64,000 nucleotides of DNA from Ignisphaera cupida (GTDB taxonomy: Archaea; Thermoproteota; Thermoprotei_A; Sulfolobales; Ignisphaeraceae): contig NZ_JASNVW010000002.1 of assembly GCF_030186535.1 (NCBI RefSeq), positions 206,001 to 270,000 of the forward strand, given 5' to 3'. Below are positions 43,567-64,000 of the stretch, in pieces. A program made the translations under genes and the position numbers. Below the pieces are notes generated by a model. That model was not told the origin of the DNA and made no database searches. It was given only the letters and a program-made list of their open reading frames with translations. Positions within the stretch are counted from its first letter, which is position 1, and every line of letters begins with the position of its first letter.

Positions 43567-43680
43567 AGAGGGGAAGAGTAGAAGTAGAAATCCTCAACAT
43601 GCATTACGCAACATTTCTTCGCTACTCACACCTCCCCACATCATTTACTTATTGAAAAGATTTTGGTGGTGTAGCTAGCC

Positions 43681-43782: not shown

Positions 43783-43796
43783 ACAATTGAGGTTTT

Positions 43797-45418: not shown

Positions 45419-45572
45419 CCCTGATCAGTCTCTCATACTCAGACTCAGGGATATACCACCTACCATGAATATTAACAGCTCTAACTTTCCCCATCCTAAT
45501 CCACTTAATCACAGCACTACGACTAACACCAACAATCCTAGCAAACTCACTAAGCTTATACAGCTTCTCCAT
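45384..45572 (-). CDS. IS607-type TnpA remnant: MerR-like HTH only
   Basis: A 62-residue protein, LYKLSEFARIVGVSRSAVIK then RWYIPESEYERLIRGEG, matching the N-terminal MerR-like helix-turn-helix of IS607 TnpA. The serine-recombinase domain that should follow (usually about 130 more residues) is absent; the frame ends shortly after the HTH and overlaps the tnpB start. It could still bind the element's ends or regulate tnpB, but cannot transpose. The element is therefore non-autonomous. It may also be a stable derivative form; I cannot tell from one copy. Confidence 0.75.
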   Translation of the reverse strand: MEKLYKLSEFARIVGVSRSAVIKWIRMGKVRAVNIHGRWYIPESEYERLIRGEGSEHSAKNP

Positions 45573-46714: not shown

Positions 46715-46783
46715 TGATCATTAGTTGTAGTTGCTAATCATATTTAAACAAAATCTTTTTTTATGGAATAATAATTTATTGTT

Positions 46784-47215
46784 TCATGTTATTTGCGTTA
46801 GGTTATATACTATAAACTTTAGTGTTAGTATTCCTTTGTCGAAGTGTATTATTGCTTGTCCTGTTTTAACTGTTTTTGTGGTTGTTATGTTTATTGTTAT
46901 GTATGCTGTTGATCCTGGGCTCAAGGTGTTGTTTTCGAATCCTATTAGCTTTAGCTGTTGTGGTGTGTAAGCATAGCTTTCACTGTTTATGTACATCACT
47001 ATTTTTTGTAGCTGCACGGGCTCTCCTCTTTCGTGAGAAACCTTTATAATTATTCTCACTGTGTTTAGTATTGCATATGCTTCTGCTGTTCCCGAAACCA
47101 CGGGTACTTTGTTAATTTCGTTGACTATGTATATGTAGAGGTATAGTGTGCTAAAAATTATTGCAACAAACATTAGTGCTGCAATCATTGCTAGTACTGG
47201 ATACTCAATTGCCAT
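46784..47215 (-). CDS. Minor pilin-like membrane protein
   Basis: A 143-residue protein with one N-terminal hydrophobic helix (YPVLAMIAALMFVAIIFSTL) and a beta-rich outer domain. IKVSHERGEPVQLQKIVMY is shared with the protein at 60346 (IKIRHERGNPVKIQQIIVY) and, more weakly, with the N-terminal part of the 633-residue protein at 53517. The N-terminus MAIEYP lacks a basic prepilin cleavage site, so it may remain unprocessed like ArlF/ArlG-type stator proteins. Last gene of the seven-gene operon, 9 bases after the TadC gene. Confidence 0.65.
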   Translation of the reverse strand: MAIEYPVLAMIAALMFVAIIFSTLYLYIYIVNEINKVPVVSGTAEAYAILNTVRIIIKVSHERGEPVQLQKIVMYINSESYAYTPQQLKLIGFENNTLSPGSTAYITINITTTKTVKTGQAIIHFDKGILTLKFIVYNLTQIT

Positions 47216-47224
47216 GGCTACTCA

Positions 47225-49063
47225 CTATGGAAATGTCATCACTTGTGATGCAAATACTTTTGATAGTGTCATTCCAATGCTGAACAACGTTATCATTATA
47301 ACTGCTGTTCTAAATCCGTATGCTATCGACCCTCCCCTCATTTTCCCAACTATTGCTGATAGAAATAGCAGTGCTAGCATAATTGTGTAGAACAATATGT
47401 TGAATGTCAAAGGATTTATGTTTATTGTGGCTAGGCTTGCTCTCCACGCTCCCTGAGCAGCTAATTTATTCAAAGCTTCTGCAAAACCTGTGAAAATATT
47501 TTTTATGAATCCAAGGAATATGCTTAGCATAGCAACAAGACCTATAATCATCATCTCCTGTGTTCTTGCAGTATTCACAAGCTTGGAGTAGGAGTTCATG
47601 AGATGCTCATAAGATGATGTAAGCTCCTTCACCATTTCCTGTTTAGCACCCATTGAAATAGCATGCATAAGCGTTTCTATGAATGCTGCGTGGAACATGC
47701 TTGGAGCATCTCTAACAATCTCCTCCCTCAAATAGCTTGTTACCTGAGCTAAAACAATTCTATCAACAATTTTCTCAACATCTCTACCATACCTAGGTGC
47801 AAGTCTTTTCAAAACAGAAACAAAGTTTTCTCCAAGACTAGCAGAAACTGTTGAAGCATCCATTGCAAGTCTAATAAACTTGTCATAAACTCTTGCTTTT
47901 CTAAGCCAAAGCTCAGAATAGATAGTTGCTGGCGCTGCTATAACCAATAGCACTACAGGTAGTGCTGTATCTGCAAAGAAGCTACTTCCACGAATCAATA
48001 GAGAAAAACCTGAAAACAGTGTAATCATCGCCATTAGCGAGAAGCTTGCTATGCTGAGATAGCTTAGAATTTTTGGAGGTGTTATCTCAAAAGATGATGG
48101 ATACATGTTTGCTACCGTGGCATAGATTATGAAGAAGAATAGCGAGAAGAATGCAAGTGGTATTACAAAGCTCATAGCAGGGCTACCACCATATATGGGC
48201 GCAACAACAGCAAATGTTATTGGTATGAACAAAAACCCAAATATCAAAACACCATTAACAATAGTCAACTTGTCTACCAAGCTACTTAAACGCATTTCCA
48301 GCTGCGAATATATTTGCCCAAAAGCTTTCTCAGCAACATCTCTTATACTACCAACAGAAATTGCTACTACAAGCAATCTTCTAAAAATTTCTCTAACAAT
48401 TTGAGAAGGATGATTCTCAGAAACAACACCCATGGCAGTTGCAAGCGATGAGCCAAGAACAGATGCAATTCTCTTAGCACTTCTAACCTCATTAGACCAG
48501 CTCTTCAAAACACTGCTATTCTCAACAGCATTAAGCATGTCATATAGAGTTAAATGTGTTGAGCTAAGAACTTTGAATAGCAGCAATAGAAATGGAAGCT
48601 CAATCTCGGTACTTGTTTTTCTCGACGATACTATGAAGAGAACTTGGAGATTTGGTAACAAGGCTATAACCACAAGTATGGTCATCATAATGAATACTGT
48701 TAGCAATAACCACATTGGTATATATCCATAGGCAAGAAAATATGTTGCTCCAATGGCTATGGAAACAATTACTGAATAGCTAAGCATTTGAACTATAACA
48801 GCATATGATTCTGCATACCTTGGTGGAAGAGGCCTACCTATGAAAAGCATTTTACTTGCTGAAAGCCTTTCAACAAAACCTGCAAAAAGCTCTAGGATGT
48901 AGCTGTGAAGATATGTTGCTAAAAGCAAAAGCATTATTATTGGATAGCCATAGAAAATAGGTAAACCAAGATATCTAAGCGTAGCTCCCATTGCAAATGA
49001 GACAATCATTAGAATTGCTAGAAGAACCCAGCCTCTATATCTTATTACCAATAGCATCACCAA
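47225..49063 (-). CDS. tadC: Pilus assembly platform protein TadC/ArlJ type, copy 1
   Basis: A 612-residue polytopic protein with two type II secretion F domains, as usual for archaeal ArlJ/TadC. Helical cytoplasmic blocks around LPFLLLLFKVLSSTHLTLYD and the second copy near MDASTVSASLGENFVSVLKR bracket clusters of membrane helices. It anchors the pilus ATPase and guides subunits. Starts are TTG 49063, GTG 49060 and ATG 49057; all overlap the end of the TadA gene. It is about one-third identical by eye to the copy at 56096. Confidence 0.88.
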   Translation of the reverse strand: MVMLLVIRYRGWVLLAILMIVSFAMGATLRYLGLPIFYGYPIIMLLLLATYLHSYILELFAGFVERLSASKMLFIGRPLPPRYAESYAVIVQMLSYSVIVSIAIGATYFLAYGYIPMWLLLTVFIMMTILVVIALLPNLQVLFIVSSRKTSTEIELPFLLLLFKVLSSTHLTLYDMLNAVENSSVLKSWSNEVRSAKRIASVLGSSLATAMGVVSENHPSQIVREIFRRLLVVAISVGSIRDVAEKAFGQIYSQLEMRLSSLVDKLTIVNGVLIFGFLFIPITFAVVAPIYGGSPAMSFVIPLAFFSLFFFIIYATVANMYPSSFEITPPKILSYLSIASFSLMAMITLFSGFSLLIRGSSFFADTALPVVLLVIAAPATIYSELWLRKARVYDKFIRLAMDASTVSASLGENFVSVLKRLAPRYGRDVEKIVDRIVLAQVTSYLREEIVRDAPSMFHAAFIETLMHAISMGAKQEMVKELTSSYEHLMNSYSKLVNTARTQEMMIIGLVAMLSIFLGFIKNIFTGFAEALNKLAAQGAWRASLATININPLTFNILFYTIMLALLFLSAIVGKMRGGSIAYGFRTAVIMITLFSIGMTLSKVFASQVMTFP

Positions 49064-50480
49064 GCCTTTTATAAAGCAAATCAGCTAGTTCACACACATC
49101 TGGTTTTTCGAGAAGAGGATCAATCTTTTTAGCCTCTTCATAAACACTTCTCATAACATTTCTCATAGCATTATACTCCTTCTCCAAATCATCAAGCGTT
49201 ATTCCATGGGCTAGAACAACTCTTTTAAAGAATGGAAAACTTTTTATGGGGTTTTCAAAACCTGGGTTTATCTGCACAGCATCGTTTTTTGGATTATATG
49301 TGAAGAGTGGGTATAGTTTATACTCTCCACTATCAGAAGCAGCATCATATATGTATATCTCACTTCTTCTAACAAGCTTCTCCTCTTTTCTCAGTGGAAT
49401 TGTTTTCACAAAAACGTTGAGAAGCTTAAGAGCTTGTGGATTAACCATTATCGGAGGTGTTGTAAGTCTTAGCAATGCTGATTCTGGTGAATCAGCATGA
49501 AACGTTGTTACAGCTCCATGACCAAGAAGAATAGCCTGTGCCCAATCCCTCGCCTCCTCACCCCTGACCTCGCCAACAACAACATAGTCAACAGATAGTC
49601 TAAGAGCAACTTTCAAAAGACTAAACACTGTAACAGGGTTTTCAGCAGTTTCCCTAGTTGTTGTTCTAGTCCAATACTTTGTACAAAGCTTTATTTCTGG
49701 CGCATCCTCAATTGTTATAATCTTCGAGTTTGGTGGAATGAGATTCAGAATAGCTGTTGCAAGTGTTGTTTTACCACTCATCATTTCTCCAACAATCATT
49801 ATAGGAACCTTATATTTTATTGCTAGCCACAGAAAAGATGCTTCATCCACTGTCAATGTGCCCAGATCTATAATTTTTAGTATAGACCATGGCTTCTTAG
49901 GCTGCTTCCTAATGTCAACTGTTGCAGATTTTCTCAAAGTCACATCCGATAGGTATACAATAGAAACCCTAGCCTCGTATCTAGGCTCAATAAAACTTGC
50001 CAATGGATTTGCCTCTGAAACTGCTTTTCCAGCAAGTGTTGACATTCTCATTACAAGCTCCTTAATCTCCTCCTCACTCAACATAATGTTTGATTCCATA
50101 TCCCCATATCTTCTATGAGTAACCTTTATCGGATTATTCATAACAATGTGAATATCTATAACGTTTTCATCCATTAGCATAGGCTCTACAACTCCATAGC
50201 CAAAAAGCTGTCTCTCAAGTATATGCCTAATAGGTTTCTCAGCTTGGCTTATAACCTTGGAGAAGTCCCTTTCCCTAGAAACCAAAATGTTTTTCAAATA
50301 GCTTTCAGCCTTACTCTCCAAAACAGTGAGAGGCTCTATACCAACAGTTTTATCGAATACCACATACCTTTTATCAAATGTTATGCAAGCTATATACAAA
50401 TCCTCTATCTCGTAGCTATCAACACATTTCAGCTCTTTAGGTGGATACAGCATTCTTATAACTGGTTTAACCGACATCAC
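49035..50480 (-). CDS. tadA: Pilus assembly ATPase TadA/ArlI type, copy 1
   Basis: A 481-residue secretion ATPase of the GspE/VirB11 superfamily. MIVGEMMSGKTTLATAIL is Walker A, IITIEDAPEIKL the Asp box, VVGEVRGEEARDW Walker B and LGHGAVTTFHADSPESALLR the His box. It powers subunit extraction and pilus growth. The N-terminal domain (about 1-150) includes the FGYGVVEPMLMDENV segment. The start (GTG 50480 or ATG 50477) overlaps the prepilin peptidase gene by four bases. Confidence 0.92.
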   Translation of the reverse strand: MMSVKPVIRMLYPPKELKCVDSYEIEDLYIACITFDKRYVVFDKTVGIEPLTVLESKAESYLKNILVSRERDFSKVISQAEKPIRHILERQLFGYGVVEPMLMDENVIDIHIVMNNPIKVTHRRYGDMESNIMLSEEEIKELVMRMSTLAGKAVSEANPLASFIEPRYEARVSIVYLSDVTLRKSATVDIRKQPKKPWSILKIIDLGTLTVDEASFLWLAIKYKVPIMIVGEMMSGKTTLATAILNLIPPNSKIITIEDAPEIKLCTKYWTRTTTRETAENPVTVFSLLKVALRLSVDYVVVGEVRGEEARDWAQAILLGHGAVTTFHADSPESALLRLTTPPIMVNPQALKLLNVFVKTIPLRKEEKLVRRSEIYIYDAASDSGEYKLYPLFTYNPKNDAVQINPGFENPIKSFPFFKRVVLAHGITLDDLEKEYNAMRNVMRSVYEEAKKIDPLLEKPDVCELADLLYKRLGDAIGNKI

Positions 50481-51163
50481 ATCACCAAACTCAAGAGAAT
50501 TGATAATACAGACAAAAGTATGTAGGTAAATATGAAGAATATGGAGTAATAGAATATGAATGGATAGTTGGGAATTGTGTAAACAATAGCATTGTCCGAG
50601 GCATTCTCTAGAAACTTTCTTAATTTGCTCAAGCTTTTTACAACATCTTTTGGTATTTCCCCTAATCCCTCAACATATATGGGTGTTTCCTTCAAATTGC
50701 TATACTTAAGATCTGCAGCATAGCGTGCTTTAGCTCTTACTCTTCCCAAACCCTCTATGTAAACCACTGGAGTTGTTCTCATATAGTGAAATAGGAGATA
50801 GCTAGATGCAATAACTATTGCTAGTATTGCTTGAATTGATAAATATTTAAAGTATCCAACAGCAATGCAAGGCGATTGTGCTGTGGTGATAATGGCTATA
50901 ACCACATCTCCTTCACCTATTAGCCCAGTGAACATATATAGAATTACAAAAATCGTTGCAACAACAGCTAAGCCAATGTATATCTTTAGAAATGTTTGTA
51001 GATCCATGGTCAACAGCCTGTAGATTGTAGAGGCTATAGCTATTATAGTATGTGTTGTGACTAGTTGTATTGGCACCCCCCTGAATTTGTAATCAGATAC
51101 ACCCTCTAGAAGTAGTAAAAGAGAGTTTATGACGAAGAACACAAACTCGTAGAAAACATTCAT
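50477..51163 (-). CDS. Prepilin peptidase, class III (PibD/ArlK-like)
   Basis: A 228-residue membrane aspartic protease of family A24. EGVSDYKFRGVP holds the first catalytic Asp and GLIGEGDVVIA the G-x-G-D motif with the second. About six helices are predicted. Between the helices, from about residue 130 to 195, is a soluble loop (ending in SKLRKFLENASD) that is unusual in length. It should process the pilin at 46274 and perhaps those of other loci; it is the only such enzyme in the window, although two TadA/TadC sets are present. Confidence 0.85.
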   Translation of the reverse strand: MNVFYEFVFFVINSLLLLLEGVSDYKFRGVPIQLVTTHTIIAIASTIYRLLTMDLQTFLKIYIGLAVVATIFVILYMFTGLIGEGDVVIAIITTAQSPCIAVGYFKYLSIQAILAIVIASSYLLFHYMRTTPVVYIEGLGRVRAKARYAADLKYSNLKETPIYVEGLGEIPKDVVKSLSKLRKFLENASDNAIVYTIPNYPFIFYYSIFFIFTYILLSVLSILLSLVM

Positions 51164-51534: not shown

Positions 51535-53520
51535 TCAACCCCTTCTAGCCTTGTTAACAAGCAGTAAAGCAACATAGGTAATACTCGAGGCTAAAACAGC
51601 TATGCCAATTGCTGCTAGCGGATCAATTGTCTTCACCTCATATACAACTGGAAACTTCTCTGTTTTTGTTACCACCACAGTTGTTGTTGTAACTCTATCA
51701 CCTATAACAACTCTTTCCCCTGCTGGAACACTCCACACATTCTCATAATAGACAACATCCAGATCTTGAGAATAGTATGTAATGTTGTTTCTTACGAGAA
51801 ACACACTCAACTTGTTATCGCCAGGCCTTAGCTTAACACATGCAATGCCTTTACCTAGCGAAGTGTTTTTGTTGTTCAGCACAATCATTATTTCGTCATT
51901 CCATGGAGCTTCCAAGTACTTGTTATAACCAGTTAAGCACAGGTTTCCAGAGCCATTGTAAATAGTTTTTATAGCAAGGTAAGGCTCTGAAAAAACTATT
52001 TTAATAGTTCTAGACTCTTCTGAGTAATACTCATTGCCACAGGTTATGGTGAAAACCGCTGAGTCTATATCAGGTGTTGCCACAACACTGGTTTCAGATC
52101 CCGACAAAACCTTGTATATGTTGCCATGAGAATCTCTGATAACGCATGAAACCCTTGTTTCATAATTGTTTAGAGCATCAAATGTTCTTATAGCTATGGA
52201 GATGTTTTGATATGGTCTCACCTCAGCTGGGTAGTAAACAACTAGTTTAAGAGGTTTTGGAATAGATGTTATATTTCCTTCTCTATGAATACATAAAATT
52301 CCCAAACACGTTACAACCCCTACTTTGTGAACTCCTTTTGGAAGAGAAATATTTGCCACAATTAAACCATTAGATGATCTAAACATGGAATTATCAATAG
52401 ATGTTATGACTATGGGGTATGAGCTAGCAACTCTTATGGTAAACAACTGTCCAGCGTAAACAGTTGTTGGATAGTTTATAGAGAGCTCAAGACTTTTCGT
52501 ACTTGCGATATACACACCCAAGTTTGTTGCTACAGCTATTAAAGGTCCATACCAATCAACAGCATAAACACTATCTACATTGGGTAATTGACACTCCTCA
52601 AAATTTATGGAACTGCCATAATCTATTATTTTAACGACTTTTCTTTTTCCAAGCAAGATTAAGCTATTTGGAGAATCTGCGGGGTAGAATATTTTAGAGC
52701 CATAATCTATGAGCATGGTTTTGCTTGTTGATAGCTCAACTCTGTACAGCGCACCTTCATCTGTTAAGATGTAAACCGATTTGGATGTGGAAAAGACTTG
52801 CAGAGCTGAGCCAATATTTAAAGGTTCATAATAAAATATTTTAGATGATACATTATACTTTAGTATATATGTTGAGGTTTCTGATGATGCTATAATGTAA
52901 AGCATTTTGCTAGAGCTATTGTATATAGCCTCAAATATTCTCAAACCCATTTGATATATCTTCTCCTCAACACCTCTATTAACATAGTATAGTCTAAGCC
53001 ACCCACCATATGTAGCCACAACAGCAAGCTCTCCATCAACATAAACTGGAGCCCCAGGAACATTAACTTTATATGCAAAACCTCTTGATATTATCACATC
53101 GCCTATGGAAACACCATATCTATAGATATGTAGTGTTGCATTAGCAGGAACACTAAAATCGTAAACACTGTTTTTGCAAATAATTCTCAGGTTTCCGCTA
53201 AAAGCGTTGTAGAATAATGTACATGGGTTTTCATTGTCTTGGAAAAACATTTTAAATGGTATAGAATTTGTTATGTAACTACCTGTTGGAGTTATTATAG
53301 CATTGTCTATAACAATCCTATCTGCAATTCCATCAAAATCCGTATCCACTAACACAACATGTTTTGAAATATTACTTGAGATTCGAATCCACTGAGACTC
53401 TTTCTCAGCTGCTGTCATGGCATAAGTGTTATGGAGGTGTAGAATAGGTAAAGCAATTAATGCAATAATTAAAAGCTTTAAGATAAGCAATGCAAGTTTC
53501 TTTGTGGTTATTTTTATCAC
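51535..53520 (-). CDS. Large secreted, membrane-anchored beta-rich protein of the pilus operon
   Basis: A 661-residue exported protein with an N-terminal signal segment (about 9-30), about 600 beta-rich residues and a C-terminal transmembrane helix followed by KARRG. VLVDTDFDGIADRIVIDN near residue 56 resembles a calcium-binding or FG-GAP-like Asp loop. Residues 150-370 read like repeated propeller blades (LYYVNRGVEE, YILTDEGALYRVEL, IAVATNLGVYIAS). Later parts look like immunoglobulin-type modules. It overlaps the upstream gene by four bases. It may be a surface adhesin or a pilus-base protein; size and position recall UpsX-type proteins of unknown role. Confidence 0.6.
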   Translation of the reverse strand: MIKITTKKLALLILKLLIIALIALPILHLHNTYAMTAAEKESQWIRISSNISKHVVLVDTDFDGIADRIVIDNAIITPTGSYITNSIPFKMFFQDNENPCTLFYNAFSGNLRIICKNSVYDFSVPANATLHIYRYGVSIGDVIISRGFAYKVNVPGAPVYVDGELAVVATYGGWLRLYYVNRGVEEKIYQMGLRIFEAIYNSSSKMLYIIASSETSTYILKYNVSSKIFYYEPLNIGSALQVFSTSKSVYILTDEGALYRVELSTSKTMLIDYGSKIFYPADSPNSLILLGKRKVVKIIDYGSSINFEECQLPNVDSVYAVDWYGPLIAVATNLGVYIASTKSLELSINYPTTVYAGQLFTIRVASSYPIVITSIDNSMFRSSNGLIVANISLPKGVHKVGVVTCLGILCIHREGNITSIPKPLKLVVYYPAEVRPYQNISIAIRTFDALNNYETRVSCVIRDSHGNIYKVLSGSETSVVATPDIDSAVFTITCGNEYYSEESRTIKIVFSEPYLAIKTIYNGSGNLCLTGYNKYLEAPWNDEIMIVLNNKNTSLGKGIACVKLRPGDNKLSVFLVRNNITYYSQDLDVVYYENVWSVPAGERVVIGDRVTTTTVVVTKTEKFPVVYEVKTIDPLAAIGIAVLASSITYVALLLVNKARRG

Positions 53521-55418
53521 CAGTTATAAGGCTTTACATATATTGTTACCAAATTAATTTTTATTGGTATTTCTGTAGACTCACTTTCTATATAGATGCT
53601 TATGTAGAGAACGATCTTTGATTCTTGAACAAGTTTTGATGTGAAATAACCATTAATATACATGTAGGCACTCTCCCCACCTCCGATGCTAATAGACCAG
53701 TCACTTGTATTTGATGTGAAAAAGCCGTTGTCTATAGCAATGCTTTTCTGTGTTATGGAAATGCCTTTGCTGTTAATAATTGATATGTTTGCTTTCAAAT
53801 ATCTTACAAAACTATGTTCAGTATCTAGACTAAGCCTTATTCTCACAGAAGCTTTATTTCTATTAGTAATATTATTTGCTACAAAACCTACAACACTTAT
53901 AGAATTGTTTATGTAGGGAAGAGTTATGTTCACAATAGCAATATTGCCATCAAGCACTGGTTTGAAGTAGACCTTTGCTCGACTAAATATCACAAGCGAT
54001 GTAGGCTCTATGGATGTAGGTGAAATAAATCTAATTGCTATTGGTTTTCCACATAGCGCAGGGTATCTAACAGTGATTACACTTCCTTTCTCAAGATATA
54101 CAAAGGGAGTTACAATAGAGTTGTTAACAATAGTGCAATTAGCTCCTATAACACAACTCCACTGATTATTGGTTGCCGAATCAAATATTTCGATAATGTA
54201 ATTGTTTGGAATGCTAGAAATTGTGATGTATGGCGATAAGTATTTTGGTAAAAGAACTAGAAGATCGTATCTAGCTGTTGCATAGTCAACAGCTAAGGAG
54301 AGTGTATGTTCCCATGGAACACCTGGTGTACCTGGAAGCTTTACAACGCCATTGACAGATGCAATTCTAGAACCTTCTCTTTCATCGAATAATACTGCTG
54401 TTACATTTAGAAAGTTTTTGTTTTTATCCATCTGAACATATGCTATTAAAATGAATGACTTGTTAATGAAACTGTTGATGTTTTTACCATCAATATTCAC
54501 GCTACTAACTAGACTATACCTATTATTTGAAATGACATAGTCTTCAATAGCAAATTTACTTCCACACGCATTTGCCTCGATACCTATAAAAACAACTTCT
54601 TCTTTAGGTTGAGACTCTTTGAATTTGAAATATATTCCTATACCCCATTTCACAAAATTATTGCAGCCACCAACATCTTCCGTAACATTTACTAGAGTCA
54701 TTCTCGATACTATCCAAGAGCCTTGTGTTAAATTTGTTTCAACATTTAGGTTATAGTATGTAAAGCCCAAACCCTTTGTAGAATCTTTAACAATTAAACT
54801 CTCTCCTGTATATACTACTTCAGCTCCCTTAGCAATCCAGTTATCAAAATTCTTAACAAGATTTTCAACATTCCTACTATTTATAATTACATTCATAAAA
54901 GCTGTGTCGCAAAATGGTTTCGCATTTTTTAAGGGCTTTGCAATATACATTGGTGTGAAAGAGAATGGGTATATGCCATTGCTAAATACAATGAATCCGC
55001 TATAGCTTTTGCCATATTCAAAACTGTAGCATGTGTTATTGAAAACAAGTTCTATTGTATATTGACCTGGGTAAATAACATTTGAGTAAAGCCCATTGGT
55101 TTCAACAGCTACACAGCTGTTTTTCATATTCAAATTGCTTATGTTTATCCACTTGCCTCCATCGTATATAGCTATGTAGCGTATTTCCTCAGGAGCTCCA
55201 CCCTCATGCCTAATTGTTATAGCTACGGTTGTATTAGCTGTTTCAAGATCTTTAAAAGCTTGAGCAAATACGCTAATCAATGGAATGTTATTTACTTGGT
55301 AAAGAGTTTGTATTGTTGAGAAAACTACGGAAAACATGAGAGTGGTGAATATCAAAAACGCTATTATTCCCAAAACAGTATGTGAAAGACCCACTGCAGC
55401 TCCCGAAATACTCTTCAC
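53517..55418 (-). CDS. Large pilin-like adhesin, first gene of the pilus operon
   Basis: A 633-residue protein beginning MKSISGAAVGLSHTVLGIIA, a pilin-type assembly helix, then a segment ITIRHEGGAPEEIRYIAIY related to the minor pilin-like proteins. The remaining ~450 residues are beta-rich with many sequons and a lectin-like stretch around GSWIVSRMTLVNVTED and YARYDLL-type strands (residues 190-400). It looks like a pilin module carrying an adhesion domain, as a tip or side adhesin would. GTG start with GAGG just upstream, 83 bases from the divergent HTH-X regulator gene. Confidence 0.65.
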   Translation of the reverse strand: MKSISGAAVGLSHTVLGIIAFLIFTTLMFSVVFSTIQTLYQVNNIPLISVFAQAFKDLETANTTVAITIRHEGGAPEEIRYIAIYDGGKWINISNLNMKNSCVAVETNGLYSNVIYPGQYTIELVFNNTCYSFEYGKSYSGFIVFSNGIYPFSFTPMYIAKPLKNAKPFCDTAFMNVIINSRNVENLVKNFDNWIAKGAEVVYTGESLIVKDSTKGLGFTYYNLNVETNLTQGSWIVSRMTLVNVTEDVGGCNNFVKWGIGIYFKFKESQPKEEVVFIGIEANACGSKFAIEDYVISNNRYSLVSSVNIDGKNINSFINKSFILIAYVQMDKNKNFLNVTAVLFDEREGSRIASVNGVVKLPGTPGVPWEHTLSLAVDYATARYDLLVLLPKYLSPYITISSIPNNYIIEIFDSATNNQWSCVIGANCTIVNNSIVTPFVYLEKGSVITVRYPALCGKPIAIRFISPTSIEPTSLVIFSRAKVYFKPVLDGNIAIVNITLPYINNSISVVGFVANNITNRNKASVRIRLSLDTEHSFVRYLKANISIINSKGISITQKSIAIDNGFFTSNTSDWSISIGGGESAYMYINGYFTSKLVQESKIVLYISIYIESESTEIPIKINLVTIYVKPYNW

Positions 55419-55474
55419 TTCCTCGGTTAATAACTTTTAAACAAGTTTGTAAAAATTATTTAAAGTTTTCTAAT

Positions 55475-55486
55475 ACAAATATTTGT
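55475..55486. promoter_or_regulatory. Palindrome in the divergent pilus operon / regulator promoter
   Basis: ACAAATATTTGT is a perfect 12-base palindrome in the 83-base space between the pilus operon and the HTH-X gene, immediately before the latter's GAGGTG. It could be the site through which the regulator controls both directions. The T/A-rich block AACTTTTAAAC to its left is a likely TATA region for the operon. Confidence 0.4.
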
Positions 55487-55501
55487 TAGAGGTGTGTTGC
55501 G

Positions 55502-56053
55502 TTGAGAAAAAAGAGATTTGGTCAAACACTGTTTACAGAGGAAGAGGCCAAGGTTTTGGAAGTGTTCATTAGACTTAAATCCATTTCTAAAGTAGCTAAG
55601 GAATTGGGAAAGTCTTTGCCTACTGTAAGTATTGTTAAGAAGAGAATTGATGAAAAAATTGCTATGGCTATAGAGACTTTGAGGTTTGTTATGGAGTTGG
55701 GCTATATATCATTTGATGAAATTCAAAAAAGGCTTTTCATTGCAAAACCTATTACAGCTACTTTAAGAGGTGCTAGCGATGCTAATGCCACACTTCTTCA
55801 CACTCTAGATATGTATTGTAGAAGTTTTGCAAACAAAGACTGTAAAACTTTGTTGCTTAGTGATCCAGAAACTCTTAGAAACATTCTTATGAAAGTTTAT
55901 GGTTCCTTGTCCGGAGCTGAGGTAGCTGTAAAAGTTCTTTTAAGATCTGCATCTGAAATAAGATTTTGTAAATCTGTTGATGTATTAGCTAAGTTGTTTT
56001 TAGAGGATTCGAACAAGTTCTTAAAAGAGTTGATGTTTTGCAGTGAGACATAG
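55502..56053 (+). CDS. Tfx-like HTH regulator fused to an X-type domain
   Basis: A 183-residue protein. Residues 10-60 (LFTEEEAKVLEVFIRLKSIS, VAKELGKSLPTVSIVKKRID) form a helix-turn-helix resembling the Tfx family of archaeal DNA-binding proteins. From about residue 100, NKDCKTLLLSDPETLRNILM then VYGSLSGAEVAVKVLLRS is the core seen in the stand-alone X proteins at 59514 and 62708 and in the broken copy at 43797. TTG start, GAGGTG 7 bases upstream. It probably senses something through the X domain and regulates the divergent pilus operon; this is inference. Confidence 0.65.
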   Translation: MRKKRFGQTLFTEEEAKVLEVFIRLKSISKVAKELGKSLPTVSIVKKRIDEKIAMAIETLRFVMELGYISFDEIQKRLFIAKPITATLRGASDANATLLHTLDMYCRSFANKDCKTLLLSDPETLRNILMKVYGSLSGAEVAVKVLLRSASEIRFCKSVDVLAKLFLEDSNKFLKELMFCSET

Positions 56054-56095
56054 GATTTGTTTGTAGCTGGAAACATTTTTGGGTTTTGGAAAAGG

Positions 56096-57910
56096 TTAGA
56101 AGGGTTTTATAATTGATGCTATGAATCTTGCCAATAGAAAAACTATTAGCATTAATATTGCTGTTCTAAAGCTGTATAGTACTGATCCTCCACGAACTTT
56201 TCCAACAAAAACTGATGTTAGGATTAGTGATAGAATTGATAGAGACTCTATAACAGTGTAAACTCTTGGATCAAATGTTATTACAGCTATTGTCTTAGGC
56301 ATTTCAACACCTTTAATGAGATTAGCCATGTAGCTATACACATTGGCTAAATAAACAAGAAATGCTCCAACAAGTGCTGAAAGACCGATCATAACACCTT
56401 CTAATGTGTTTGCAAATGATCTAACTCTACTCACAGCAATATTTAATCTTTCATAGCTTGCTGCAAAAGCTTTGAGAGATTCTGGGCTATAGCCTAGTCT
56501 AAGTAGTGTCGTAAGAGTTTCAATAAAGGATGCGTGGTAAATGCTTGGAGCTCTTAACACAAGTGCTTTTCTCAATGTGGTAGATGTGTAGCTGCTAACA
56601 ATAGATCTAACAAATCTTATCATTCTTCTTCCAAATCTTTTAGAGTATTCAGAAAGAAGTATAGCAGGGTTTTCACCAGTTGCAGCTGATAAGCTAAGTG
56701 CGTCAGAAGCCATTTTAACAAACCTGTCATAGAATCTCGACTTGAGAATCTCCTTTTCGGAGAGAATTGTTGGTATAGCAAGAATTGCGAGAAGAATAAA
56801 TATCAATGTTGTATTACTCAAATAATTCATTGTTATAGCCATGAAAATGTTTGTTATTGGTATAGCAATGGATATGATTAACGCAGTTTCTCCAACAAAA
56901 AACAGTGTTTTGGGAGGCTTTACAACTAGGCTTGATGGATAGTAGCTTGAGACTAAAGCATAGAGCAAGAAAAATGTCAAAACCTGAACACTGAGAATGA
57001 TAATAACCAAAAACAGTGTTACACCACCAATTACAGGAGTTATGGATGCTATTAGAATGGGTGCGAAAAAGTATGCGAAAAGAGCTGTGCCAACAATTAT
57101 TGTAAACTTTTCCACAAGTCCAGAAACCTTTGACTCAAACCATGTGTAAACCTCCTCGAATACTCTCTCAGTAACATCTCTTATGTCCCCCATTGAAATT
57201 GCAGCTCCAATAACTCTTCTAAAAAGATCTCTAATCTTATCTGAGGGGTGGTTTGCTGCAACCATGTCTAGAGATGTTAGAAAAGATGTTGATGTAACAC
57301 TAGAAACCTTTCTTGCAAGTTTAATCTCTTTTGCAAAACTCTTTAGAGCTACACTATCTTCAATTTCTCTAAGAAACTCGTATATGGGTAGTCTAAGAGG
57401 TGTTATTGCTCTTAAAAATATTAATACATATGGCAACTCGACTTCAGCATCTATTTTTCTTTGAGAAGAAGCAAAAGCTATGTAGATTTGGGGAAGGTGA
57501 TATGTGAATAGAATTGAGGATCCAATAACAACTAAAGCAATTAGGTAATATGGTTTAGCAAATGCTATTGCATAACCAAGCACCATGATAAATACTATAA
57601 CAAGTATTTTAAGAACATATGCAAGTGTTGCTATGGTTTTTGAGCTAAGACCTTTTCCAGATTTAATGAAATTCAGAGTTAGTATAGTGCGAGATCTGTT
57701 CTCAAATTTTCTAAGAAATTTGCCAATAAATGATACAACCACAGTTAATCCAAGTAGCGTTGCTAATGTGCTTATACACCAAGCTTTGTAAATTGTTGTT
57801 AATAGAATGTATATAGATAATGTGATTAGCAAATCAATGTTCTTAACAACAAAATCCATAACAGTATTTTTAACATTTTTAAAAATATTCAATCCAAACA
57901 AGGTACGCAT
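56096..57910 (-). CDS. tadC: Pilus assembly platform protein TadC/ArlJ type, copy 2
   Basis: A 604-residue polytopic protein with two F domains, paralogous to the protein at 47225. Corresponding landmarks are VELPYVLIFLRAITPLRLPI in the first F domain, FRRVIGAAISMGDIRDVTER after it, and MASDALSLSAATGENPAILL in the second. It starts two bases after the TadA stop. With no pilin in the same operon, it may serve the pilin-like product at 60346 or share subunits with the first machine. Confidence 0.87.
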   Translation of the reverse strand: MRTLFGLNIFKNVKNTVMDFVVKNIDLLITLSIYILLTTIYKAWCISTLATLLGLTVVVSFIGKFLRKFENRSRTILTLNFIKSGKGLSSKTIATLAYVLKILVIVFIMVLGYAIAFAKPYYLIALVVIGSSILFTYHLPQIYIAFASSQRKIDAEVELPYVLIFLRAITPLRLPIYEFLREIEDSVALKSFAKEIKLARKVSSVTSTSFLTSLDMVAANHPSDKIRDLFRRVIGAAISMGDIRDVTERVFEEVYTWFESKVSGLVEKFTIIVGTALFAYFFAPILIASITPVIGGVTLFLVIIILSVQVLTFFLLYALVSSYYPSSLVVKPPKTLFFVGETALIISIAIPITNIFMAITMNYLSNTTLIFILLAILAIPTILSEKEILKSRFYDRFVKMASDALSLSAATGENPAILLSEYSKRFGRRMIRFVRSIVSSYTSTTLRKALVLRAPSIYHASFIETLTTLLRLGYSPESLKAFAASYERLNIAVSRVRSFANTLEGVMIGLSALVGAFLVYLANVYSYMANLIKGVEMPKTIAVITFDPRVYTVIESLSILSLILTSVFVGKVRGGSVLYSFRTAILMLIVFLLARFIASIIKPF

Positions 57911-57912
57911 CT

Positions 57913-59355
57913 CTAACTTGCTCTATTCAGCATCTCCATAAATTTGCTATATAGTATGCTAGGCAATTCTTTATAGCTAGGCCTATCAAGTTTTGGATCT
58001 ATTTTCACATATTCGCTATATACATTCTTCAATGTTTCTATCATTGATTTGTATTCTTTCTCTAAAAAGTCTCTAGAAACTCTATGGGCACGAACTATTC
58101 TCTCTATAAATTTGAGATCCTTTATGGGATTCTTGATGTTGTTATTCAAAATTATTGTGTCTAAATCACTATCGTAGATGAATAGTGGTGTTACGGTACC
58201 TTCCTCATGCACGTAAACCTCATGTCTATAAACACGACCTTTGGGTCTTTCAAAAGCATTTGTTTTAACAAAAACATTTAGAAGTTTAATGACTTGTGGA
58301 TCAACTGAAATAGGTGGAGATATGAGTCTTAGTAATGCAGCTTCTGGGCTTTCAGCATGAAATGTTGTTATTGCTCCATGTCCAAGAAGAATTGCGTTTG
58401 CCCACTCCCTTGCCTCCTCACCCCTGATCTCACCTATTATGAGATAGTCAAGAGATAGTCTAACACCTGTTTTCACTAAATCAAACACAGTTATTTTATA
58501 TTCTCCAAACTCCCTAGTTGTTGTACGAACCCAGTACTTTACTGGTAGTCTAAACTCTGGCGCATCTTCTACTGTCATAATTCTTACCCATGGAGGAACA
58601 AGTGCAAGCAAAGCTGATGCAAGTGTTGTTTTACCTGTCATCATTTCTCCAACAATAATTATAGGAATTTTATATTTAACCATAAGCCACAGAAAAGCAG
58701 CTTCCTCAAAACTTAGGCTACCATAATGAATAAGCTTTAGAATTGTCCATGGGTTTTCAGGTGGTTTTCTAATGTCAACAACAATGTTTCTTCTCATGGT
58801 AACATCAGACATGTAGACAATAGACACTCTAGACTCGTATCTAGGCTCAATAAAACTTGCTAATGGCATTGCTTCTGAAAGAGGTTTTCCAGCAGTAGCT
58901 GCAAGCCTCATTGCAATTTCCTTAACCTCCTCCTCGCTCAGCTCAATATTTGTTTCAAGAACACCATAAACTCTATGAATAACCTGTATAGGTCTGCCAA
59001 TCATTATATGTGCATTGATTATGTCTGGATCCATGTAAAAAGGCTCTAAAACACCATAGCCAATAAGTTGTCTCTCAACAACATGTCTCAAACTATCATC
59101 ACCTATTCTCGCTATTTCCTCATCGATAGACTCTTTAACCATAACAATATCGTAGAGCTTCTCTTCCAACTTCCTAATTCTGTTCATAGCATTGGAGTCC
59201 TGCAGAAAAGCGTCATAGACTATGTATTTCCCATTTGAAATACACACAATGTAAACGGGTTTCCCACTACGAGGTAAAGAATATTGCTCAACACACTGAA
59301 TTTTCTCCTTAGGTGGATAAAGCAAGCGAAGCTTTATTTCAAATCTAACTGACAT
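57913..59355 (-). CDS. tadA: Pilus assembly ATPase TadA/ArlI type, copy 2
   Basis: A 480-residue ATPase closely related to the copy at 49035. IIVGEMMTGKTTLASALL is Walker A, IMTVEDAPEFRLP the Asp box, IIGEIRGEEAREW Walker B and GHGAITTFHAESPEAALLR the His box. All catalytic residues are present in both copies, so both should be active. It heads a two-gene unit with the TadC copy 2 and is preceded by a short gap with A/T-rich promoter-like sequence near 59390-59400. Confidence 0.92.
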   Translation of the reverse strand: MSVRFEIKLRLLYPPKEKIQCVEQYSLPRSGKPVYIVCISNGKYIVYDAFLQDSNAMNRIRKLEEKLYDIVMVKESIDEEIARIGDDSLRHVVERQLIGYGVLEPFYMDPDIINAHIMIGRPIQVIHRVYGVLETNIELSEEEVKEIAMRLAATAGKPLSEAMPLASFIEPRYESRVSIVYMSDVTMRRNIVVDIRKPPENPWTILKLIHYGSLSFEEAAFLWLMVKYKIPIIIVGEMMTGKTTLASALLALVPPWVRIMTVEDAPEFRLPVKYWVRTTTREFGEYKITVFDLVKTGVRLSLDYLIIGEIRGEEAREWANAILLGHGAITTFHAESPEAALLRLISPPISVDPQVIKLLNVFVKTNAFERPKGRVYRHEVYVHEEGTVTPLFIYDSDLDTIILNNNIKNPIKDLKFIERIVRAHRVSRDFLEKEYKSMIETLKNVYSEYVKIDPKLDRPSYKELPSILYSKFMEMLNRAS

Positions 59356-59513
59356 ATTTCCTCTTCTATTTCAGAGGTTTAATGAAATAAGACTTAAAAA
59401 CTATAATTCTAAAAACCCATTAATGGATCTAGATCTAGATTTAGAGAAGACTTCTGTAAAAGAAAATATGGGCGAAAATTACATGTTGTACCCAGTGTTT
59501 TCAGTTAATCCCA

Positions 59514-59828
59514 TTAGTTCAAAAAAATCTTTATGTCATTACCTGTTTTCACCATATGCGATAGCTCATCAACAATTTCAGGTTTTTTCAACAGCTCAGC
59601 TATTGGGTTTAGGAATAGTATTTTGAATGTGTAGTCTGTTGTTGTTATATCTCCTTTGAAATGTGTTAGTATGAGTTGATATAGTTTGCTTGGTGATGTG
59701 AGGAAAAGTGTTATACAATCCATACCGGTTAAGGAAATTGAGAGAATATTAAGCAAATTAAGCATACCAGGAACACGACTTGAAATATAGCTATGGATTT
59801 TATATCTCAACTCCTCTAAAGTACTCAT
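59514..59828 (-). CDS. Family X small protein, copy beside tadA2
   Basis: A protein of about 104 residues, helical by composition, starting at ATG 59828 with GAGGTG six bases upstream. The N-terminal part ends SYISSRVPGM; the core MDCITLFLTSPSKLYQLILT is followed by HFKGDITTTDYTFKILFLNP. The core DNA (59596-59774) is identical but for one base to 62808-62986, while both ends differ. The domain also occurs in the HTH fusion at 55502 and in the broken gene at 43681/43797. I do not recognise a named family with certainty. Upstream of the tadA2 gene on the same strand, so possibly co-transcribed. Confidence 0.7.
   Translation of the reverse strand: MSTLEELRYKIHSYISSRVPGMLNLLNILSISLTGMDCITLFLTSPSKLYQLILTHFKGDITTTDYTFKILFLNPIAELLKKPEIVDELSHMVKTGNDIKIFLN
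59596..59774. repeat. Near-identical 179 bp core shared by two X genes, copy 1
   Basis: Matches 62808-62986 with a single difference (A at 59679, G at 62891) and in the same orientation. Similarity stops abruptly on both sides inside the coding sequence. Recent gene conversion is the simplest explanation. Confidence 0.9.
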
Positions 59829-59933
59829 ATGCAACACCTCTAACCTCAATAACATATTTTATACAACAACATAATCTCTTTTTCATTCATGATAATGAAG
59901 TCATTAAATTACCGAAAAATTTATATAGCAGTC

Positions 59934-60074
59934 TCAGTTAGAGCTATGCAAATTATTTGCCTTCCCCAACGAAGAATGAAGCTTCTTTAAATATTTATGT
60001 GCATCTCCAATGTTTAAATCTAATTCGTTTTCATAAATTGCAACAGCCATTTTCTTACTAACAATACTTAGCAT
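59934..60074 (-). CDS. Possible 46-residue protein
   Basis: A short frame from ATG 60074 encoding a basic helical peptide (AVAIYENELDLNIGDAHKYL, then KKLHSSLGK). No clear ribosome site precedes it and no family is recognised. The rest of the 59829-60345 gap is A/T-rich promoter-like sequence with nothing else visible. Confidence 0.2.
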   Translation of the reverse strand: MLSIVSKKMAVAIYENELDLNIGDAHKYLKKLHSSLGKANNLHSSN

Positions 60075-60345
60075 AATCTTGTGACTCTAACCAGATTTGC
60101 TCTCTTCAGAATAATCACAATCATTTAATCGTACTAAATGTAGATATTTTGTAGATGGTTACAGGTATTGAATATAGTATTAACTCCAAATAGTGTTTCC
60201 TTACCTAATGAGACACAGCTATTTTACAAATGTTCAAGTTTATTATTAGAATAATCTTAATGTGTGCAATGTTTATATTTTCATATAGCTTTTACTAATG
60301 TTCAGAAATTCACGATAAAACACTATATGTGCAAGGTGAATGTAT

Positions 60346-61149
60346 GTGGGTGTGGAGCATCCATATCTAGCAATTCTTGCAACAATAGCTTTTATGGGTG
60401 TTGTTATAAGCTCCATATTTCTCTATGTCTATGTTGTTGACCAGGTCAATAAATCTCCTGCTCTAGGTGTTTATGCAGAAGCCTACACAGTTAGTGATAG
60501 TGTAGCTGAGGTATTGATAAAGATAAGGCATGAGCGTGGAAATCCTGTTAAGATACAGCAAATTATTGTGTATGCTGGTAAAAACACCATAACAATAAGT
60601 GGTAGTGAGATTGGCTCTAACCCAAGTATTGGAGTAGAGGGATGCAATGGCAATGTTGTTATACCTGGAAGCATATGTGTAATAAAATTCAATGTAAGTT
60701 TGCCTAGCCTTAATGCAATGTATCAAGGACTTGTATTTTTAAGTGAAGGAACATATCCAATAGCATTCATACCGATAAACAAAACCACCTTAGCACCTCC
60801 AGTAATAACACTAACAACTACAAGAACATTGACAATTACAAGAATAGTTCCTCCAGAAAACATAGCTTTAAATCTCAATAAGAGTGTATACATTGGTGAA
60901 GCCGAAATAGGCTTTACCAAATCAGTAGTGGAACTTAGAGTGTATGCTAGACAAACAATTACTATAACAAAGACAGCAACTCTTATCATAACATTATATG
61001 ATGTAAATGGAAATATAATAACACAGACAAGCACCACTATAACTCCAACAACAGTTGCACCGGGAGGAAAACTGATAGGGGAAAAAATAAAAATAGAAAA
61101 GGTTCCTATTGATAAATTGGGTTGGATTGATGTTGACTTAGTCTATTAG
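60346..61149 (+). CDS. Minor pilin-like protein, second set
   Basis: A protein of about 267 residues with one N-terminal helix (HPYLAILATIAFMGVVISSI) and the shared block IKIRHERGNPVKIQQIIVY. The GTG at 60346 is chosen because GGTG lies 7 bases before it and it gives MGVEHPYLAIL, parallel to MAIEYPVLAMI of the paralog at 46784. The C-terminal ~115 residues, absent from that paralog, are Thr-rich and then beta-rich. Convergent with the KaiC-like gene, ends 18 bases apart. Likely a component of the second TadA/TadC machine. Confidence 0.65.
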   Translation: MGVEHPYLAILATIAFMGVVISSIFLYVYVVDQVNKSPALGVYAEAYTVSDSVAEVLIKIRHERGNPVKIQQIIVYAGKNTITISGSEIGSNPSIGVEGCNGNVVIPGSICVIKFNVSLPSLNAMYQGLVFLSEGTYPIAFIPINKTTLAPPVITLTTTRTLTITRIVPPENIALNLNKSVYIGEAEIGFTKSVVELRVYARQTITITKTATLIITLYDVNGNIITQTSTTITPTTVAPGGKLIGEKIKIEKVPIDKLGWIDVDLVY

Positions 61150-61167
61150 CGTACCTCGTCAAAGATT

Positions 61168-62553
61168 CTATGCATTCTTTAAAATCTCAATGCAATCACT
61201 TATACAATCATCTATGTCTCTCTGATTTAATATCGCTGGTTTTTCCATTCCTCGTCTCCAAACATACAATGTGTATTCAGCATCTTTGCTATTGATTTTC
61301 TCTAGATTGAATCTTAGTATGGTGTCAGCCATTAACACATTGTATTCATATAACTCATTTATTGCCCCCATTCTAACAACAGTTACTCCTAAACTTCTTA
61401 GGTACAGCAACTGGTTAAGCAAATCTCTTTTCCAAATAAATTCATTTTCTATAGAATAAGTGCCAACACCATGGAATATTACAATATCTGGTTTTACTTC
61501 ATTTACTATTTCTAGTTCTTGCATCATTAACTGTGTTAGTGGTAGAGATGAAGGATTCAAGCTTCTTATCACTATATGCTCATTAATTATTTTATCAATT
61601 TTTTCTTCATCTATGCCATGTGTCAATAGCTGATTCTTTATAAAGGTCTTCATATCTTTTGGTGAATACTTGTAGCTTATTATCAACGCCTTGAAGTTAT
61701 TGAGTTTAGCGATAGAAAGTAGCAGCATTAATATGTTTGCTGGTCTAGCATCAGCTGGATAGGCTATGTACACTACTTCACCTTTTCTAATGCTATTAAA
61801 GTAGCTGCTAAGCTTTTTGCATGGAAGTTTTATGAACTCTTCACGAATCTCTGGTATCTCCTCTAGAATTATTGGTGTGAAAAATACAAGTCCCTTCTTT
61901 TCAACAAATGTGAATGGTATTTGAACTGTGTGTATAGAGGATCCCCTAGCTTTTCTAACCTCCAATTCTCTAATCAAAAAACCATGCTCAATTCTATGCT
62001 TAAGAATGAAAACAATATCTGAAACAAATTCTATGTCTCCAAGATCTATAGATTCTTTGCCTATTGGTATTTCAGCTATTAAAATAGCTAAGCCATTGAC
62101 TAATCTGGGAAGCTCTGCAAAAAAGTTTTGTATAAAAGCTCTTGCAGCAACATCACTTTCAACAGCTTTTAGAAGTGGCGTAACAGAGTCCACAACAATT
62201 ATATCTGGCTTGAAATTTGCTAAAACCTCAGAAATGCTATTTATAGTATGTTCAACAACTTCATGCTTAGAAATTAACGGAAATTTCACAAACAGTAATA
62301 AACCACTTTTCTCTACACTCTCCAAATCAATGCCAAGTCTCTTCATATATGCATAAAGCTTATCTCTATGCTCTTGAAAAGATATGTAAAGACACTTCCT
62401 CCCATTAACAGCATTAGCGTAGCACATTGTTGAAGCCAATGTGGTTTTACCAGATCCTGGATGACCAGCTACAACAAGAAGTGTTCCTGGAGCAAGTGAT
62501 TTGCCAAGAACCTTATCAAGATTTTCAATACCAAAAACAAATAATTTACTCAT
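61168..62553 (-). CDS. KaiC-like RecA-superfamily ATPase with a degenerate second domain
   Basis: A protein of about 461 residues. Domain 1 (about 1-225) is KaiC-like: VVAGHPGSGKTTLASTM is Walker A, YISFQEHRDKLYAYMKRLG the following segment and DIIVVDSVTPLLKAV Walker B. Domain 2 repeats the fold (ALIISYKYSPKDMKTFIKNQ, KPDIVIFHGVGTYS as Walker B-like) but YPADARPANILM stands where Walker A should be, without Gly-Lys-Thr. ATG 62553 with GAGTGA upstream is preferred over upstream TTG. It follows an X gene and a second KaiC-like gene on the same strand. ArlH of the archaellum is a single-domain relative. Confidence 0.8.
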   Translation of the reverse strand: MSKLFVFGIENLDKVLGKSLAPGTLLVVAGHPGSGKTTLASTMCYANAVNGRKCLYISFQEHRDKLYAYMKRLGIDLESVEKSGLLLFVKFPLISKHEVVEHTINSISEVLANFKPDIIVVDSVTPLLKAVESDVAARAFIQNFFAELPRLVNGLAILIAEIPIGKESIDLGDIEFVSDIVFILKHRIEHGFLIRELEVRKARGSSIHTVQIPFTFVEKKGLVFFTPIILEEIPEIREEFIKLPCKKLSSYFNSIRKGEVVYIAYPADARPANILMLLLSIAKLNNFKALIISYKYSPKDMKTFIKNQLLTHGIDEEKIDKIINEHIVIRSLNPSSLPLTQLMMQELEIVNEVKPDIVIFHGVGTYSIENEFIWKRDLLNQLLYLRSLGVTVVRMGAINELYEYNVLMADTILRFNLEKINSKDAEYTLYVWRRGMEKPAILNQRDIDDCISDCIEILKNA

Positions 62554-62707
62554 TAAATCACTCTTAACACTTCTAGAGCTTAACATAGCCTATTCTAGCA
62601 TATGTTTAAATTGTTACACAAGTATTAAATCATTTAGCCCTTAAACTAAAATAATGCTAGTTATATAAAATCATTGAAATTCATATATTAAACAAAATCT
62701 TGTGTAA

Positions 62708-63052
62708 TTACTGTGAATACTTTTTGATAAGCTCAAAAAATTCTCTATCCCTACCTATCTTTGCCAAGTGCAACAACTCATTAACAATATTTGAATTCCT
62801 TAAATATTCAGCTATTGGGTTTAGGAATAGTATTTTGAATGTGTAGTCTGTTGTTGTTATATCTCCTTTGAAATGTGTTAGTATGAGTTGGTATAGTTTG
62901 CTTGGTGATGTGAGGAAAAGTGTTATACAATCCATACCGGTTAAGGAAATTGAGAGAATATTAAGCAAATTAAGCATACCAGGAACTCTCTTAAGAATGT
63001 GATTATGCATATAACTTTTTAGGTTTTGTATCCAAGCCTCTTCCTCACTCAT
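62708..63052 (-). CDS. Family X small protein between the KaiC-like genes
   Basis: A protein of about 114 residues, ATG at 63052 with GGTG eight bases upstream. N-terminus MSEEEAWIQNLKSYMHNHIL, then KRVPGM and the core shared with the protein at 59514; the tail ends GRDREFFELIKKYSQ. It begins 26 bases after the upstream KaiC-like gene ends, so the two are probably in one operon, with the second KaiC-like gene 154 bases further on. A partner or regulator of the ATPases is the best guess. Confidence 0.7.
   Translation of the reverse strand: MSEEEAWIQNLKSYMHNHILKRVPGMLNLLNILSISLTGMDCITLFLTSPSKLYQLILTHFKGDITTTDYTFKILFLNPIAEYLRNSNIVNELLHLAKIGRDREFFELIKKYSQ
62808..62986. repeat. Near-identical 179 bp core shared by two X genes, copy 2
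   Basis: Counterpart of 59596-59774, 3212 bases away in direct orientation, with 178 of 179 bases equal. The two copies enclose the pilin-like gene at 60346 and the KaiC-like gene at 61168, so recombination between them would delete both. Confidence 0.9.
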
Positions 63053-63078
63053 TAACAAACACCAAAAACAAAATGATG

Positions 63079-64000
63079 CTAACCAAGAATTAAGAGTTTG
63101 CTTATTAACTTTTCAACATCGGCTTTTGTCAGTAGAGTTTCTTCTCCCCATTCAACAATCCTAACTGTATAATCAAGACAATAGTTATCAATACAATCAA
63201 TATGTATCATGCTATCTGCTAGCATTCTCTTAATTGTAGATAGTTCTGGAGGTGATTTAGCTTCAGCTAGTATTACTTCAACACCTCTAGACTTTAAAGC
63301 AAGTGTTTCGTTAAATAATGTGCGTAAATACCTTTCCTTATTTGATTCAAGCATAAGTGGTAGTGAAGAGTTGTAAAACACTACAGCTCCTGGCTTAACC
63401 TCATCAACAAGAGATAACTCCATTGCTGTTCGCTCATAAATGCTATAGGCTAGCGGATTAACGGCTCTAATAACAATTCTGTTTAAAACTCTTTCAATTG
63501 TTTCTTCATCAGCATATTTCCTAAACACATCAATGATATAATGTTTAAGCTCATCTTCGGAATGTTTATAGCTTATAATTAGTATTTTCTCGTTTCTAGG
63601 TGCATGCATAAGTATTGATAGTAGTAGGCATGTAGATGGTAAGATTTGTGGAGTAAACTCTATTAGTGTTACATGTACGGGTTTTCTAACTTCTTCAAAC
63701 TCATATTCGTTGTTAACTCGCTTAAGTTTTAAATGTGATTTAGCAATGGACTTAATTTCTCTGGGTATTACTGGTGGATGAAGAACAATTCCCTGGACAC
63801 CTCTTATAGAAAATGGTATTTCAGCTACTAAAAGTTCTCTACCTCTAATCTTTCTAATCTCCATGAATCTCTCAATCAATCCTTCATCAATTCTGTGCTT
63901 CAATATGAGAATAGCATCAGCAATAAATTCTATGTCACCTAAACTCGGATATTCCTGCCCTAAAGCAACTTCTACAACCATTACAATACTGCCTAAAACA
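63079..64000 (-). CDS. KaiC-like ATPase, second copy, 5' end outside window
   Basis: The frame is open to base 64000, so the N-terminal Walker A part is missing from view. PSLGDIEFIADAILILKHRI and FMEIRKIRGRELLVAEIPFS match the end of domain 1 of the KaiC-like protein at 61168 (SIDLGDIEFVSDIVFILKHR). Domain 2 again lacks a P-loop (EFTPQILPSTCLLL) but keeps the ILIISYKHSEDELKHYIID and KPGAVVFYNSS strands. First visible gene of the KaiC-X-KaiC series. Confidence 0.75.
   Translation of the reverse strand, partial: VLGSIVMVVEVALGQEYPSLGDIEFIADAILILKHRIDEGLIERFMEIRKIRGRELLVAEIPFSIRGVQGIVLHPPVIPREIKSIAKSHLKLKRVNNEYEFEEVRKPVHVTLIEFTPQILPSTCLLLSILMHAPRNEKILIISYKHSEDELKHYIIDVFRKYADEETIERVLNRIVIRAVNPLAYSIYERTAMELSLVDEVKPGAVVFYNSSLPLMLESNKERYLRTLFNETLALKSRGVEVILAEAKSPPELSTIKRMLADSMIHIDCIDNYCLDYTVRIVEWGEETLLTKADVEKLISKLLILG

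Follow-up and report, generated by a model that had tools for sequence, protein, structure and literature searches.

Described systems with KaiC-like ATPases and small helical proteins

A role as major signalling hubs in archaea has been proposed for KaiC proteins, and we know of almost no tests of the outputs and partners of these hubs. The second domain of cyanobacterial KaiC carries phosphorylation sites, and KaiB is a thioredoxin-like protein. With regard to pili, KaiC (arCOG01174) and a Death-like helical protein (arCOG03758) are found in subclade 4B of the archaeal type IV pili (Makarova et al. 2016, PMC4858521), and Galperin et al. (2018, PMC5847659) assigned the NitrOD5 domain (PF11537) to the Death-like family of archaea.

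Here we describe a stretch of 64,000 nucleotides of the genome of Ignisphaera cupida, a heat-loving archaeon (contig NZ_JASNVW010000002.1, positions 206,001 to 270,000; hereafter the window), in which two genes for two-domain KaiC-like ATPases flank a small gene, X1, beside type IV pilus genes. The features are listed by window position, except for X3:

43797-44108, minus strand: X4, X gene truncated at its 5' end, with the end of a TnpB-bearing element in place of the first helix
46274-46714, plus strand: pilin-like gene (GDLSAPVLAIIVTIGIIAAG...)
47225-49063, minus strand: TadC2
49035-50480, minus strand: TadA2, second T2SSE ATPase, 52% identical to TadA1
50477-51163, minus strand: probable prepilin peptidase, weak Peptidase_A24 match
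53517-55418, minus strand: large pilin-like or adhesin-like surface protein, no Pfam family over the cut-off
55502-56053, plus strand: X5, fusion of a Tfx-type HTH (residues 8-65 approximately) and an X domain (75-182)
56096-57910, minus strand: TadC1, membrane platform protein, 604 aa, weak T2SSF match, with profile matches in relatives
57913-59355, minus strand: TadA1, T2SSE family ATPase, 480 aa
59514-59855, minus strand: X2, second copy of X, same strand as tadA1 and 158 bp upstream of it
59596-59774, minus strand: X2 tract matching that of X1, 179 nt, 1 mismatch
60340-61149, plus strand: pilin-like protein whose N-terminus has a hydrophobic helix, gene divergent from X2
61168-62586, minus strand: KaiC-A, two-domain KaiC-like ATPase, 472 aa, N-domain with and C-domain without P-loop
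62708-63058, minus strand: X1, helical Death-like/NitrOD5-type adapter, 116 aa
62808-62986, minus strand: X1 tract nearly identical to X2, 179 nt, 1 mismatch
63079 to about 64467, minus strand: KaiC-B, two-domain KaiC-like ATPase, of which 63079 to 64000 (the C-terminal 306 aa) lies in the window
L017 6797-7513, same contig, outside the window: X3, fifth X-domain gene of the genome

The locus shares with subclade 4B the combination of a KaiC-like gene with one for a small helical protein, next to the genes for TadA and TadC, the likeness of X to arCOG03758 being one of gene context only, and the subclade 4B order of TadA, two TadC, KaiC and X is matched by some related loci (L116, L117 and L128), where these genes form a single co-directional run. 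It differs in its KaiC–X–KaiC doublet, its second X gene before tadA, its HTH–X fusion and its one TadC per TadA, and in that KaiC-A is not orthologous to the KaiC of the sister clusters. The original prediction saw a different regulatory solution in this trio, but as the pair of KaiC and Death-like protein beside pili was already described (Makarova et al. 2016, PMC4858521), the kind of system is already known; to this the present locus adds the KaiC doublet, a second X gene upstream of tadA, an HTH–X fusion within the cluster, the tract bearing the sign of conversion and the exchanged KaiC. Like NitrOD5, X is a small output or adapter domain, although it is mostly stand-alone, often paired with KaiC, and not fused to a receiver domain. 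The archaellum offers a further parallel, as ArlH is a KaiC-family ATPase whose gene accompanies those for a TadA-like ATPase and a TadC-like platform protein; however, ArlH has one domain and, to our knowledge, no X partner, and KaiC-A and KaiC-B score only 52.9 and 50.8 bits against the NCBIfam ArlH profile, far under its cut-off of 215. Cyanobacterial KaiC is likewise a two-domain protein, and the N-domain of the proteins described here aligns with both of its domains, but their second half has no P-loop and hence lacks the second nucleotide-binding site that defines a KaiABC clock protein. No KaiB- or KaiA-like gene was noticed when the genes neighbouring the trio were read.

The KaiC genes and the surrounding pilus cluster

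The genes for KaiC-B, X1 and KaiC-A are consecutive and all on the minus strand, and two TadA/TadC pairs (47225-50480 and 56096-59355) and pilin-like genes stand beside them, as was originally predicted. Only the C-terminal part of KaiC-B is visible in the window because the gene start lies outside; the gene runs about 467 bp past the window edge and is complete in the assembly, encoding 462 aa (L009 7079-8467). X1 starts 20 bp after KaiC-B and, as far as could be read by eye, has no clear promoter of its own, while TATA-like stretches were seen by eye upstream of KaiC-B and of X2; given the 20 bp gap, X1 is probably co-transcribed with KaiC-B. Just beyond the window and divergent from KaiC-B is a gene for a single-domain KaiC of family TIGR03877 (L009 8754-9527; 445 bits, cut-off 307).

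Both proteins match the Pfam KaiC family (PF06745) in their N-terminal half only, with E-values of 2.8e-37 for KaiC-A and 2.7e-31 for KaiC-B. Among 14 aligned relatives the N-terminal domain has a conserved GHPG(S/A)GKT P-loop, Walker B and K-x-R-G motif, as well as one conserved glutamate at what we take to be the place of the KaiC catalytic pair. The P-loop is absent from the C-terminal half in all 14, which bears out the claim that the second domain of both proteins is P-loop-less; this half lacks a strong profile match, and its size and arrangement suggest that it is a descendant of a KaiC domain, in which case both proteins would belong to the two-domain KaiC-like type whose second domain is inactivated (iKaiC). 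The genome encodes a third two-domain KaiC, which is distant from the pili. In a related locus (L138) two two-domain KaiC genes in inverted orientation on the same contig (3651-5042 and 11699-13090) encode identical proteins.

As to the pilus genes, proteins with N-termini similar to that of the 60340-61149 protein accompany this pilus type in L118 and L125 as well, and in L125 and L240 homologues of the 46274-46714 gene have a divergent orientation to X. The G+C content falls from approximately 37-38% to 33-35% across the part with TadA1, X and KaiC (window 52000-64000), and as this TadA type is also absent from the rest of the genus and family, that part is possibly a horizontal gain. In one relative (G005, L074), the site by a Sua5-type gene and a relative of X4 holds a pilus cluster of a different TadA type, which, when compared with window positions 42417-50480, suggests that pilus cassettes are exchanged at a single site.

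The X-domain family

The original prediction treated X as a single gene, which has to be corrected: the genome encodes five X-domain proteins, and four of the genes lie inside the window. A profile seeded by X1 gave 47 matches in loci from this genome and 60 related ones, among which are two duplicate readings, of X1 and X2. Neither X1 nor X2 itself has a Pfam match, but a family member in L083 scores 29.3 bits against NitrOD5 (curated cut-off 27), so that we rejected the notion of X as a new domain, and NitrOD5 was matched at E-values up to 1 by 7/30 X members.

Folded without an alignment, X1 gave a poor model (pLDDT 49.5), which was mended by an alignment of 30 relatives, the resulting AlphaFold2 model having seven helices with a mean pLDDT of 95 and a pTM of 0.86. 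The sole convincing match in a Foldseek search of the PDB was PH0832 of Pyrococcus horikoshii (PDB 2p9x; probability 0.99, TM 0.52-0.62), a modest similarity to a protein for which we know of no function; it was also joint best by profile search (E 0.17). That PDB search by fold brought up no eukaryotic Death domain, and pyrin was reached by profile at an E-value of 1.1 only; the Death-like label of X thus rests on the literature and on the NitrOD5 match.

X5 joins a DNA-binding part to the X domain, and its HTH part matches TIGR00721 with an E-value of 3.7e-6, which is under the curated cut-off. Such a fusion with both parts together was found in none of the 60 relatives, where the matches were largely confined to either the HTH or the X part. 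X3 shares an N-terminal domain with similar proteins in L142 and L086; this domain has no match to a Pfam profile and presumably resembles an HTH or a cyclin-type repeat. X3 is divergent from genes for secreted proteins and a signal-peptidase-like protein (L017 6797-11602), which we take to resemble archaeal bundling-pilus genes, and for which no Pfam match was obtained. Elsewhere in the order, two other genomes encode a rubrerythrin-like domain fused to X (L072, L083 and L087). X4 lacks the PG motif as well as the first helix, and its 5' end runs into the TnpB-bearing element (window 43797-45600), in which TnpB is in two pieces, accompanied by a short HTH fragment from a resolvase-like gene; X4-related copies in L074 and L077 adjoin the same Sua5-type gene.

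X1 and X2 are nearly identical over the 179-nt tract, in which the synonymous sites match too and which encodes residues 25-84, or helices 2 to 5 of the model. The gene parts on either side are only about half identical, which rejects a plain recent duplication, and the tract is a sign of gene conversion between the two copies. Selection on the tract cannot be shown from what is one event only.

Conservation of the X–KaiC pairing and its relation to pili

Across this genome and the 60 relatives, 15/46 X genes have a two-domain KaiC, as recognised by its C-domain, no more than 2.5 kb away (0.36 expected by chance). A scan anchored on KaiC, for which a full-length alignment of seven rows was the query in named genomes, gave 72 distinct two-domain KaiC loci, with X within 500 bp in 25, TadA within 10 kb in 13 and both in 8, these counts being lower bounds because many contigs are short. 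The close pairs are on the same strand in 24/25 cases, and 14/25 overlap, many by a few bases, or have a gap of at most 1 base. Pairs were also found beyond the order (L204, L205 and L206). The X–KaiC pairing is therefore real and phylum-wide, and these counts support the proposal that the two-domain KaiC has a small partner dedicated to it.

A general link with pili, as was also proposed, did not emerge. Within the same 61 genomes, only 6/51 two-domain KaiC genes (1.9 expected) and 10/46 X genes (1.8 expected) have TadA within 10 kb, and four of these ten X genes are in this genome; as most X and two-domain KaiC genes lie away from pili, we rejected the trio as a pilus-only system. This holds for the family overall, but not for the pilus type of TadA1, where the link is strong. 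TadA1 represents a distinct TadA type, which we sought by TadA sequence alone, ignoring KaiC, in 214 genomes of the order; it is present in 12, this one included, and in no other genome of the same genus or family. X and a two-domain KaiC are found beyond tadC, in convergent orientation, in all five relatives where the site is visible (L232, L233, L235, L237 and L240), with TadA proteins 62-69% identical to TadA1. Four loci (L234, L236, L238 and L239) are outside this count, their contigs ending inside or at tadC, and X–KaiC was not seen beside the more distant TadA2-like loci L241 and L242.

Phylogeny of X, TadA and KaiC

In the X tree, a supported group of nine rows (100/90) unites X1 and X2 with the sister-cluster X genes, and a constraint holding all of these in one clade was not rejected (p 0.41). 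TadA1, too, falls with these sister clusters. The KaiC tree has a different arrangement: KaiC-A pairs with L098 (96/97) and KaiC-B with L157 and L158, while the sister-cluster KaiC proteins form a group (100/99) with this genome's third, distant KaiC. Forcing KaiC-A into the sister-cluster clade lowered the log-likelihood by 72.8 and was rejected with an AU p of 0.0098, an optimistic value because the tested clade was picked after the tree had been seen; KaiC-A was thus rejected as an orthologue of the sister-cluster KaiC. When the presence of both X and TadA was mapped on the KaiC tree, 7 changes were required compared with 8.8 in shuffled labels, and 50/500 shuffles were as low.

Possible roles of the cluster

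The reading that we favour, with a probability of roughly 0.55, is that the cluster is a KaiC-hub signalling cassette controlling the adjacent type IV pili, with X as the pilus-specific adapter and KaiC as an exchangeable part. The two-domain KaiC proteins would form ATP-dependent rings via their N-terminal domain, with the P-loop-less C-terminal domain serving as a docking or regulatory tier, and X, as a small all-helical adapter, would bind KaiC and read the state of the ring. X would stay with one type of TadA, TadC and pilin, while its KaiC partner could be exchanged. By X–X binding it may relay this state to other proteins with an X domain, X5 most likely among them, and X5 would then set pilus gene expression, or alternatively the effect on TadA could be direct; we consider the HTH–X protein the likely output route to gene expression. 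This cassette reading is based on the X–KaiC adjacency far above chance, the same-strand and often overlapping pairs, their occurrence beyond the order, the 5/5 tadC sites, the co-directional runs in L116, L117 and L128, the grouping together of X and TadA, the HTH–X fusion, the NitrOD5 match and the published KaiC and Death-like pair of pilus loci, and the exchange of KaiC on the non-orthology of KaiC-A where X and TadA do group together. Counting against it are the location of most X and most two-domain KaiC genes away from pili, the fold search matching PH0832 and no eukaryotic Death domain, and the occurrence of the Tfx–X fusion in none of the relatives.

An unlikely alternative is control in the manner of ArlH, with KaiC-A, KaiC-B and X binding TadA, or TadA and TadC, and switching assembly or retraction with no transcriptional step. 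The position of X2 158 bp before tadA1 on the same strand, the co-directional tadA–tadC–tadC–KaiC–X runs in L116, L117 and L128 and the phylogenetic tracking of X and TadA would all fit such direct action, but scores of 53 and 51 bits are far from the 215 expected of an ArlH, which has one KaiC domain and, as far as we know, no X partner; moreover, most X–KaiC pairs are distant from TadA, and an HTH–X fusion is encoded within the cluster. We give equally little weight to the pair being a general KaiC–X signalling module that stands beside the pilus cluster by chance and acts on something else. That the 6/51 of KaiC genes near TadA compare with 1.9 expected, that the X-plus-TadA label is barely more clustered on the KaiC tree than when shuffled, and that the third two-domain KaiC lies elsewhere are all consistent with this, whereas the 5/5 observable TadA1-type relatives with X–KaiC beside tadC, at only 62-69% TadA identity, argue against a chance neighbourhood. 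Very improbable is a KaiC/Death-like oscillator in which X would take the place of KaiB and the pair keep time, since the second domain has no P-loop here and X is all-helical, unlike KaiB, even if KaiC homology speaks for it and Makarova et al. (2016, PMC4858521) put forward such an oscillator for the pili of subclade 4B.

Returning to the signalling cassette, a tentative and rather doubtful elaboration is that X is the pilus specificity factor, remaining with one TadA/TadC type as the KaiC hub is swapped, with gene conversion keeping the core of X1 and X2 (residues 25-84) alike, so that both would present the same face to KaiC or to the HTH–X protein in one homotypic X network. If true, such a network would join ATP sensing, the pilus motor and pilus transcription. 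The cluster unites at one site a hub, an adapter, a DNA-binding protein that carries the adapter domain, and a pilus machine, and the sister clusters, with the same adapter and pilus and a different KaiC, allow the direct question of which part gives the specificity.
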